Assembly: GCA_028689245.1 (NCBI GenBank)
Contig: JAQTWO010000005.1
Location: 1-32,636, forward strand
Reading direction: 5' to 3'
DNA: 32,636 nt
Source of the DNA: Candidatus Altimarinota bacterium
Lineage (GTDB): Bacteria; Patescibacteriota; Gracilibacteria; BD1-5; UBA2023
The position numbers and the translations under genes are program-made. Below the pieces are notes generated by a model, which did no database searches, was not told where the DNA came from, and saw nothing but the letters and a program-made list of their open reading frames with translations. Positions within the stretch are counted from its first letter, which is position 1, and every line of letters starts with the position of its first letter. Shown here piece after piece: positions 14,248 through 31,189 of this stretch.

Positions 14248-16017
14248 ATGAATCCAATTTATGTCATAGGGCTTACAAGAGTATCCTCAAAGAAACAAGA
14301 TAATCGTTGAGAGAGCCCAAAAGTGCAAGAACAGGCGATCAGGCGATCGGCTGAGGGTAAATGAGAAATACTTCTAAAGACTTTCAAAGATAGTTGTACT
14401 GGAACGAAGATGGATAGACCGGCTATAATGGAGGCTCTTGAATTTATCAAGACGTCGAACAAAAAGATTTCGAAGTGTTATTTCTATAGTTTTGACAGAA
14501 GTTCCAGATGATGACATGATGTACATCACGGAATCAAGGAGATGTTTCGAAGCGTCTGAGTGACATACCTGGATATAAGTTGAGTAATCCAAGAGAAAAC
14601 AAAGGTTATACATATTGAATGAGTGAATACAGATGAATACGGGTGGGCTTATGAAAATCCGAGTGAATTCACCGAGGAAATACTTGTTATGATGGCAAAA
14701 GGTGACAAAGATAAAATGCTACAGAGGACTATTTCTCAAGAAATAAGGAATACACGGAATGGATATCACCAAAGACAGTCTCATTTTTGACTAAAGAATG
14801 TTAAAATCCGTGATGCAGACTGAAAAATAAAAGTAACTGAAATGGATGACGAGGTCGAGTCAGTGTGGGTAAAGAAGATTTATGAATTACGAGCCATTGG
14901 AATTCCTGATAGCGAAATAGTAAAAGAAGTTAATTGAATGGGCTTCACAACTAGATCTACGATGCGCCAGAATAAACGAGTACTATGACGCCCATTAACG
15001 GTAAAGTACCTACAAACCCTTATTAAAAAGCCTGTTTATGCTGGTATTAGTATGGAAAAGTGGACAGGGTATAAACCTATAAAAAAGGCTTCTGCGGATT
15101 GATTCAAGAATCTAGTTGATATAAATACTTGGAATAAGGCCAATAAGTGAAAAGTTCAAATAATTGAAAAAGAAGATTGAAAAATTGAAATACTATATTC
15201 AAAGAAATGAAAAGAGAGTTTTGAACCAATAATAGAAAGGCGAAAGAATTATAACCCGAAGTATCCTTTCTCCAGAGTTTTGCGTTGTCCCGTATGTTCA
15301 GGATATTTAACCCCCAATAAATCAAAGTCCAAGAATTGAGAACATCATCACTATTATCAATGTAATGGAAAAAAGAACGAGCATGGAATTCAAAAACATA
15401 GTAACTATTCTCTAAAAAGAGACGAGGTGAATCGTGTAGTGATGAAATTTATGCAGCAGGTAAAGCCATGAAATTGAGTCGTTAAAGCAATGGATTATAT
15501 TTCTTCCTTACATTTTGATACAAAAACGAAATCGAGTGCACATCTGGCATTAGATAGCGAGAAGAAAATTACAGAACTCAAAAAACAGAGGGCTCAAGTT
15601 GAAGAAAACATACCTCAGTATTTGCATCTTACAAAAATCATGGAAGCCATGGAGAAGCAATTATCAAAAATAGATGAAGATATTTTCCGAGAAGAATCTG
15701 AGTTTATGAATTCTTCTAGAGTTCTCGATATCGATAAGTCCGAATTTCGGAAATTCATGAATTATTGCATCACACACATAGAGAAGTTCGCTTCAGATAG
15801 CGAAAACAACGAGAAGATAGAATTGATTTTCCGATTCATTTTCCAAGAAAAACCTACCTACGAAGAAATAGTATCTCACACACCAAAGATGTACCCGATC
15901 TTCTCTCTACAAAGCCAACTAAAAAATTCCCCCGAAGGAGAATTCTTTAATATGACTTGATGGCAGATCAGCAGAGAATCGAACTCTGATCGCAGGATTT
16001 GGAGTCCTGCATTCTAA
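14248..16017 (+). CDS. Large serine recombinase, 589 aa
   Basis: This is a site-specific DNA recombinase of the large serine family. The N-terminal resolvase domain (about residues 4-150) has IGLTRVSSKKQ with the likely catalytic Ser13, and FDRSSR, the usual D-R-x-S-R motif. A recombinase domain follows (VWVKKIYELRAIGIPDSEI; LTVKYLQTLIKKPVYAG). Then comes a zinc ribbon (RCPVCSGYL plus a later Cys), and a C-terminal coiled coil. About 19 in-frame TGA codons encode Gly, so the standard code shows only its last 156 codons. Under table 25 the gene passes the TGA at 15958 and ends at TAA 16015. Its last 57 bases are therefore antisense to the 3' part of tRNA-Trp. It probably integrates or excises the element to its left. 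Confidence 0.85.
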
Positions 16018-16035
16018 CCGTTGAACTACTGATCT
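15961..16035 (-). tRNA. trnW: tRNA-Trp(CCA)
   Basis: The minus strand folds as a full cloverleaf: acceptor AGATCAG/CTGATCT, D-stem GTTC/GAAT, anticodon stem with loop CTCCAAA (anticodon CCA), T-arm CAGAG/CTCTG with TTCGATT, discriminator G and encoded CCA. Only UGG codes for Trp when UGA is Gly, so this anticodon suffices. It follows tsf on the same strand, two bases after the tsf terminator hairpin. The 3' end (15961) abuts the recombinase gene's standard-code stop, which suggests an attachment site. Confidence 0.95.
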
Positions 16036-29658: not shown

Positions 29659-29744
29659 GGGCGATTCAACCGGTATTCGGATTGCTATTTGACTCCTCCA
29701 AGTATGCGTCGTCACTCCTTATGAATGATATTGTGGAAAAAAGT

Positions 29745-29772
29745 TTGACATCCTTCCTTATTTTTATACTAT
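29745..29772 (+). promoter_or_regulatory. Promoter of the Phe attenuator and pheS
   Basis: Perfect TTGACA (29745-29750), 16-base spacer, TACTAT (29767-29772). Transcription would start near 29779, just upstream of the leader-peptide ATG. Confidence 0.65.
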
Positions 29773-29801
29773 CTATGTGTTGGCATTTCTTACTATTTTT
29801 T

Positions 29802-29873
29802 ATGCAAACGATACAAAAACAATTTTTCTTTAGCTTCTTCTTTCGAAAATTCGAAGGATTGTTTTTGGTGTAA
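29802..29873 (+). CDS. Phe-rich leader peptide, 23 aa
   Basis: ATG 29802 to TAA 29871. Eight of 23 residues are Phe, in the order QFFFSFFFRKF then LFLV. This is the classic layout of a leader peptide whose translation senses charged tRNA-Phe. It precedes hairpins that can pair in two exclusive ways and then the PheRS gene. It is analogous to the pheM leader of the E. coli pheST operon. Confidence 0.85.
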   Translation: MQTIQKQFFFSFFFRKFEGLFLV

Positions 29874-29922
29874 AAAACACTACGATCAACCAATCCTTCG
29901 AGCAATTGAGGGATTTTTTTTA
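29843..29922 (+). promoter_or_regulatory. Transcription attenuator of pheS
   Basis: Four pairing segments are visible. A short 1:2 hairpin (TTCGA-AAAT-TCGAA, about 29843-29856) overlaps the last Phe codons. The 2:3 antiterminator pairs CGAAGGATTG (29852-29861) with its exact complement at 29891-29900. The 3:4 terminator pairs AATCCTTC (29892-29899) with GAGGGATT (29908-29915), followed by eight T. Ribosome stalling at Phe codons would free segment 2, form 2:3 and let transcription continue into pheS. Confidence 0.85.
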
Positions 29923-29941
29923 TTTTTTCACTTTTCTTTCT

Positions 29942-31189
29942 ATGAATACAAGTAAACGTTCAGAAGCGGACATGCAATGGATTTCTCGTATACAAAACCA
30001 GTTGCGGAGCGATTCCATAAGCGAACAGGATCGAGCCTACTATTCACGCATCCTTCGAGTCCTGGACATGGAGGATCTCACGGAACAAAAGGGACATCCG
30101 GTGCGGATGATCGTGGAATCCATCACCACCTCTCCGTTTTTTGCGAATTTTTCACAGGCTTCGGTACCGGAAATCGTTTCCGAATGGGAAACATTCGATC
30201 TCTTCAACTTTCCTGAGGATCATGTGGCGAGACGTCCGAGCGACAGCTATTTCTTGCACAAATCCGACATCAAAAAAGAGAGTATTCTCCTTCGACCCCA
30301 TACTTCCGTCATGTGGTACTACCACCTCGTCGAGAATGGAGGCATGGAGACACTCGCACAAACAGGAGAAGTGCGGGCACTTTCGTACGGAAAGGTATAC
30401 CGAGTGGACGAACTCGACACAACGCACCATGAATGTTTTCATCAGATAGACGGACTCCGAATCGTGGAAAAAGAACGGGAAATCATCGACCAGAACACCC
30501 TCAAAGAAGTGCTCTCCGCCACCATACAGGCACTCTTCGGAGCGGGAGTGAAGTACCGTTTCAATGCAGACAATTTCCCATATACGACCGACAGTCTCGA
30601 AGTGGAAGTGGAGTACGAAGGGCGATGGATAGAAGTACTCGGAGCCGGGGTCGTACACCCGAGCGTACTCCAAAAACTCGGTATAGATCCGGAAAAGTAC
30701 AACGGATGGGCATTTGGATTCGGGATCGAGCGACTCGCCATGCCGCTCAAAAAAGTATCCGACATCCGTATATTTTGGAGCCAGGATCCACGGATTACGA
30801 GCCAATGGGGGGATTTTGCACCATACAGAGAAGTCAGCAGCTATCCTCCCGTACTCAAGGACATATCCTTCATAGTACCGAAGGAATTGTTTGTCATGGA
30901 TGAAAAAGAGATGCAAAAATCGGGAGAATTGGAACTCACTCGGGAAACGGAATCCAATTTCTTCGCCATCACCGGTGCGATCCGAGACATATCGTGAGAT
31001 CTCATCGAGGAGGTAAAAATCACCGGGATGTTCGAGGATGATGCCAGATTTTCGGAGGACAAAAAGTCCATCACCATCCGTATCACATTCCGATCGCTCG
31101 AAAGAACCCTGACAAATGAGGAGATCAATATAGCATACTTCCTGATCCGGGAAAAAATCGAGAAAGAACTCGGGTATGTATTACGATAA
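29942..31189 (+). CDS. pheS: Single-chain, mitochondrial-type phenylalanyl-tRNA synthetase, 415 aa
   Basis: Charges tRNA-Phe. The catalytic core has class II motif 2 (GKVYRVDELDTTHHECFHQ, about residues 150-168) and motif 3 (WAFGFGIERLAMPL, about 256-269), as in PheRS alpha. Unlike bacterial PheS it carries a C-terminal FDX-ACB anticodon-binding domain (about 301-415: YPPVLKDISF, GDLIEEVKITGMFED, ITFRSLERTLTNEE), which in bacteria normally sits on PheT. The layout matches eukaryotic organellar PheRS (FARS2), which works as a monomer. No pheT follows. Gly352 of the conserved GDL(V/I)E motif is encoded by TGA 30995; the standard code would cut the protein there. Start ATG 29942; an upstream TTG frame runs through the terminator and is rejected. 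Confidence 0.9.

Follow-up and report, generated by a model that had tools for sequence, protein, structure and literature searches.

The window, a stretch of 32,636 nucleotides, is contig C46 of a 1.24-Mb, 99-contig assembly, the genes of which require reading of TGA as glycine (code 25). The assemblies compared below are metagenomic bins, with 5.6% contamination in the window's own genome, and because of this origin the presence or absence of single genes should be taken as approximate. Named relatives of the PheRS gene considered here belong to Candidatus Gracilibacteria, SR1 and Absconditabacterales. Elsewhere in the window (14248-16035), a large code-25 ORF resembling a recombinase extends into the tRNA-Trp gene of the opposite strand (15961-16035), which suggests an element integrated at tRNA-Trp. 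The region 29745-29941 combines a promoter, a Phe-rich leader ORF, an antiterminator and, in competition with the latter, a terminator ending in a run of T, and is followed by the gene of a monomeric PheRS:

29745..29772, plus strand: sigma70-type promoter TTGACA-16-TACTAT (TTGACA at 29745-29750, 16-nt spacer, TACTAT at 29767-29772)
29802..29873, plus strand: leader peptide ORF MQTIQKQFFFSFFFRKFEGLFLV, 23 codons, 8 of them Phe (ATG at 29802, stop TAA at 29871-29873)
29823..29843, plus strand: regulatory codon run FFFSFFF (TTT TTC TTT AGC TTC TTC TTT)
29839..29858, plus strand: 1:2 hairpin TCTTTCGA-AAAT-TCGAAGGA
29851..29861, plus strand: segment 2, the 5′ arm of the antiterminator, TCGAAGGATTG
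29891..29901, plus strand: segment 3, the 3′ arm of the antiterminator and 5′ arm of the terminator, CAATCCTTCGA
29892..29921, plus strand: intrinsic terminator (3:4) AATCCTTCGA-GCAA-TTGAGGGATT, a 10-bp stem (29892-29915) followed by T6-A-T6
29942..31189, plus strand: monomeric PheRS P0001, read as auxiliary, 415 aa, one in-frame TGA as Gly (code 25), PF01409 and PF03147

Both the TTGACA promoter and the 23-residue leader with eight Phe codons had been claimed in the first-pass annotation and hold as described. Phe is encoded by codons 8-10, 12-14, 17 and 21 of the leader, the ATG of which is the first one downstream of the presumed transcription start, with no Shine-Dalgarno sequence seen in front of it. 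The antiterminator had been considered as an exact 10-bp pairing; it is exact indeed, but extends over 11 Watson-Crick pairs (29851-29861 with 29891-29901), that is, one pair more. The exclusive terminator with eight T is likewise real as regards the T8 run and the competition, but the first two T belong to the stem closure, so that six remain, plus the A-T6 tract. Since segment 3 is common to both structures, pairings 2:3 (11 bp) and 3:4 (10 bp) are mutually exclusive. The minimum free energy of 29780-29941 lies three standard deviations below that of shuffled sequences.

The downstream product P0001 unites in one chain the class II PheS core (PF01409) and a C-terminal FDX-ACB domain (PF03147), both scoring over cut-off, and its closest solved (PDB) relatives are mitochondrial PheRS. 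With TIGR00469 (pheS_mito) it gives 183 bits versus the equivalog cut-off of 258.35; judged by its predicted domains, P0001 shares the architecture of mitochondrial PheRS but stays outside the mitochondrial equivalog. NF051887 (PheS-related mystery ligase SrmL) gives 224.6 bits, below its curated cut-off of 300. In the same genome canonical PheS (on C88) and PheT (on C3, over the family cut-off) are encoded, and P0001 is for this reason regarded as auxiliary, which disagrees with its earlier designation as "the" PheRS of the cell. PheT was matched in all 11 tested Gracilibacterial genomes carrying the monomeric gene (over cut-off in 10). No PheT reached the cut-off in any of the 31 Parcubacterial genomes that encode relatives of about 45% identity, and the monomer is therefore probably the sole PheRS there. 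Pocket residues are common to the Gracilibacterial and Parcubacterial groups (FPYT in many, HQxDG and a conserved Ala257). Given the domains, the distribution of PheT and these pocket residues, P0001 is read as a genuine but auxiliary PheRS, which would charge tRNA-Phe. In many PheT-less Parcubacteria (e.g., G592:C12, G546:C34 and G367:C12) a short stand-alone ORF corresponding to PheT positions about 40-151 adjoins the monomeric PheRS; it is possibly a separate tRNA-binding partner.

Folding was modelled by means of the partition function at equilibrium with the ribosome as a moving mask, and the position of the ribosome flips the predicted fold at the point where the Phe codons cease. In the window leader, the antiterminator has a probability of 0.79-0.97 as long as Phe codons 8-10 and 12-13 occupy the A site, and from codon 14 onward the terminator takes over with 0.91-1.00, the value of 1.00 applying once the ribosome has left the run behind. 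A comparable change of fold, again where the Phe codons cease, is predicted for L003, L009, L008 and L075, leaders of the same kind in related genomes, while in L042 the terminator is favoured almost throughout in these equilibrium calculations. The ribosome-free window leader is antiterminated at equilibrium with a probability of 0.74, while the classical scheme predicts termination via 1:2 and 3:4.

The monomeric PheRS gene occurs sporadically, in 17 of the 353 class genomes, and no conserved neighbours of it were found. The Phe attenuator is present in 5 of 13 main-clade orthologues with enough upstream sequence (the window, G002, G017, G054 and G062) and is thus not universal; the presence of relatives keeping the gene without a Phe leader, which had been named as an argument against the attenuator, is thereby confirmed in part, for the eight remaining orthologues. 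All five leaders are preceded by TTGAC[A/T]-16 nt-TANNNT, as read from the sequence, and their peptides are quite different from one another. They sit in three places of the PheRS protein tree, and a sixth Phe leader, L075 of a Zambryskibacterium, is located far apart among Parcubacteria. Such scattering implies either frequent loss of the element or repeated gain. In this Zambryskibacterium, which uses code 11, the attenuator occupies L075 4673-4866 before the monomeric PheRS and has a 10-bp antiterminator TCGAAGGCTG/CAGCCTTCGA. The L009 leader (G017:C10) contains an in-frame TGA (Gly) within antiterminator segment 2, where translation by the standard code would stop; the window leader is free of in-frame TGA. 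If the antiterminators of the six loci are registered on GAAG/CTTC, 86% of cells are paired versus at most 56% when the register is slid, and 7 of 12 pairs have changes on both sides; alternative pairings are kept via compensatory change, in a set of loci partly selected because they pair.

In related Gracilibacteria the GAAGG/TCCTTC core recurs in leaders with Phe, Tyr or mixed codons. A first pattern search (GAAGG...CCTTC...T7) covered 30 relatives, and a class-wide pattern (GAAGG-N28-58-TCCTTC-N3-20-GRRGGWTTTT) was applied to 353 class genomes, yielding 18 hits versus one in the reversed control. Seven of the 18 turned out to be plain terminators without aromatic leaders and were set aside. 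Eleven attenuators with aromatic leaders were found, all within the window's own family, and two of them precede auxiliary PheRS. Since the pattern fixes the core sequence, AT-rich variants such as L008 and L042 escape it, and the regulon is undercounted. With downstream genes identified by Pfam and NCBIfam, leaders before other genes are as follows:

G001: leader MNLMRQYSFFFFFRA, before DAHP synthase
G006: leader MNLHCQNFFFFFFRNESKGLFLAGN, before DAHP synthase
G018:C57 (L210): leader 1 MLTIIQKQYFFYFFFQTFEGLFCGV, then tandem leader 2 MITLNKKLYFFFYYFYFRTRGKFFYCLC with its own terminator, before DAHP synthase
G017: leader MNKLITTTSYFFFYFFSKAEGYFWCM, before a small ORF, chorismate mutase and DAHP synthase
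G010: leader MKIISSTFFYFYFFQS, before prephenate dehydratase
G018:C33 (L195 / L213): Tyr-only leader MVNFATKYYYYYLS with five Tyr codons, before prephenate dehydrogenase (TyrA)
G002 (C107): leader MNISQNSSYFYYFFR, before an aminotransferase
G000:C5:932-1001 (L197), minus strand, the window's own genome: leader MQNLRKQSYYYYFFR, before a class I/II aminotransferase
G016:C7 (L192): leader MIQNIVHQNYYFWFCFFQRRRIIFDV containing codons for Tyr, Phe and Trp, followed by two small ORFs, neither of which matches Pfam

The regulatory codon fits the product: Phe before PheRS, and Phe, Tyr or mixed codons before the aromatic genes of the relatives. DAHP synthase is encoded in only 5 of 27 family genomes, and four of these five have an aromatic attenuator, no leader being found for the DAHP synthase of G013. 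In G018:C57 the auxiliary PheRS lies about 50 nt past DAHP synthase, in operon with it, and the tandem attenuators there could serve to combine Phe and Tyr signals or to multiply them. No leader precedes the PDT gene (G000:C4) or the chorismate mutase/TyrA genes (G000:C60) of the window's own genome. Ribosome-mask folding predicts a clear switch where the aromatic codons cease for 6 of 10 further leaders (G001, G018 leader 1, G018 TyrA, where it is sharp, G010, G017 and G016) and a noisier one for G006; in G000:C5, G002:C107 and the second G018 leader no switch is predicted at equilibrium, the terminator being favoured at nearly all positions.

T runs and TTT codons arise readily in AT-rich DNA, and most orthologues are devoid of the leader, so the locus might be perceived as a plain intrinsic terminator with accompanying hairpins in AT-rich intergenic DNA, in which the Phe-rich ORF is an accident of T-richness. 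The rate of such accidents was estimated with a detector built on three elements, namely a U-tract terminator, a segment further upstream that can pair with the 5′ arm of this terminator, and a short ORF that ends in that place and has four or more identical residues out of seven, any amino acid being allowed; an initial requirement for three G-C pairs was loosened, since L008 and L042, the leaders of which are AT-rich, escaped it. Six Phe leaders were detected in 108 distinct upstream regions of monomeric PheRS genes versus 0.03 per dinucleotide-preserving shuffled set of the same regions, and Leu, reported once, was the second frame of one of the six Phe loci. Over 1.61 Mb of the loci, both strands included, 13 Phe-rich hits were obtained, six of which are the PheRS leaders, and upstream regions of canonical pheS (22) and pheT (10) contained no Phe leader with competing pairings. 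Other Parcubacterial genes with a Phe-rich ORF in front of them (L063, L103, L109 and L110) were dropped, competing pairings being absent there. The architecture found in the window is thus far beyond chance. T-richness does not predict the Tyr-rich (TAT/TAC) leaders before tyrA, nor would an accident entail compensatory pairing in the antiterminator, and this explanation, largely refuted already by the shuffles and Tyr leaders, is in our estimation highly improbable.

Accepting the leader as real, one may still ask what it senses. The same structure would result from a ribosome halted at any point of the run, and auxiliary aminoacyl-tRNA synthetases are sometimes resistance genes, as reported for trpRS1 of S. 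coelicolor (cited in PMC4787780), so that control could be exerted by a general slow-down of translation or a translation inhibitor, rather than by Phe-tRNA. Codon specificity would be superfluous for general stalling, whereas leader codons fit the downstream pathway (Phe for PheRS and DAHP synthase, Tyr for prephenate dehydrogenase), which leaves this option a small chance. A bound ligand, protein or tRNA, as in a riboswitch or T-box, might cause attenuation in place of a ribosome on the leader ORF; this has a precedent in Firmicutes, where T-boxes are common controllers of aminoacyl-tRNA synthetases. At the Rfam gathering threshold, however, two tRNAs are the only matches in the window, without any T-box or riboswitch, and no T-box is matched in 29700-30000 at E up to 5. 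At the lax threshold Phe_leader RF01859 ranks first among 4227 Rfam families (31.1 bits, E 0.0016 in 301 bases), and we consider control by a bound effector very unlikely.

Taken together, these observations make it very probable that 29745-29941 is a ribosome-mediated transcription attenuator sensing charged tRNA-Phe and controlling an auxiliary mitochondrial-type PheRS as one of an aromatic set. Its anatomy, recurrence, codon specificity, compensatory pairing and in-silico switching support this directly, while transcription, stalling, termination and induction in the cell, as well as tRNA-Phe charging by P0001, are expected from the sequence. If Phe-tRNA is scarce, the ribosome would stall in FFFSFFF and cover segment 1, allowing segment 2 to pair with segment 3, so that no terminator would be formed and the PheRS gene would be transcribed. 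With ample Phe-tRNA, the ribosome would pass through segment 2 to the stop codon, and the 3:4 terminator would end transcription. Related attenuators of the family would operate before DAHP synthase, chorismate mutase, prephenate dehydratase, prephenate dehydrogenase and aminotransferase. Classical leader-peptide attenuation, as the first-pass annotation had it, thus remains the best reading in view of the codons, compensatory pairing, in-silico switch, recurrence and aromatic genes, but it is not confined to Proteobacteria. We are inclined to think, with reasonable rather than high confidence, that in this family of code-25 Gracilibacteria the aromatic regulon is controlled wholly by leader-peptide attenuation (one GAAGG/TCCTTC switch, a Tyr-only TyrA leader, tandem DAHP synthase-PheRS leaders), that the auxiliary PheRS is its starvation-induced member, and that the device is independent of Proteobacterial ones in origin or spread.

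Attenuators in reduced-genome bacteria imply that transcription is coupled to translation and that amino acids are sensed without regulatory proteins. In uncultivated organisms leader codons represent a readable signal of which amino acid a gene answers to; here, they single out the monomeric PheRS as a second, Phe-responsive enzyme and help to assign the aminotransferase.

The closest known counterpart is Phe_leader RF01859, comprising Proteobacterial pheA and pheST leaders, with which the window leader shares a Phe-rich short ORF, 1:2/2:3/3:4 pairings, a U-tract terminator and an aromatic gene or PheRS downstream. It differs in belonging to code-25 Patescibacteria, in AT-rich short stems, in the auxiliary monomeric PheRS as a target and in a score of 31.1 bits against the gathering cut-off of 55 (L003 and L075 give 29.4 and 24.4 bits, respectively); the window leader works like Phe_leader, yet is not filed as an RF01859 member. 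Vecchione and Sello reportedly described in 2010 ribosome-mediated attenuation of an auxiliary tryptophanyl-tRNA synthetase in Streptomyces coelicolor. Such control of an auxiliary TrpRS is cited in PMC4787780, and the reported system resembles ours as an extra aminoacyl-tRNA synthetase under ribosome-mediated transcriptional attenuation and differs in amino acid (Trp, here Phe), host (Actinobacteria, here a Gracilibacterium) and a tie to antibiotic resistance. Classical attenuators are known from Proteobacteria and Actinobacteria, including those in front of Streptomyces trpS and leuS, which likewise subject aminoacyl-tRNA synthetase genes to leader-peptide control, but no Phe leader was found for Actinobacteria in that work (PMC1262725). 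The 2010 survey, which to its authors' knowledge was preceded by none shown outside these two phyla, added Firmicutes, with histidine leader peptides before duplicated hisS paralogues of bacilli (Naville and Gautheret 2010, PMC2965389). There too a classical leader peptide outside Proteobacteria acts on a duplicated aminoacyl-tRNA synthetase gene, but with His codons, in Firmicutes and for a paralogue of the same type, whereas here Phe codons precede a mitochondrial-type monomer existing beside PheST. In the full-text literature searched, which does not extend to most subscription papers, no report was found of a leader-peptide attenuator of Patescibacteria or of a Tyr-codon leader before tyrA. 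Within the searchable literature, therefore, the mechanism is a known one, while its lineage, its target and the probable aromatic regulon are new.
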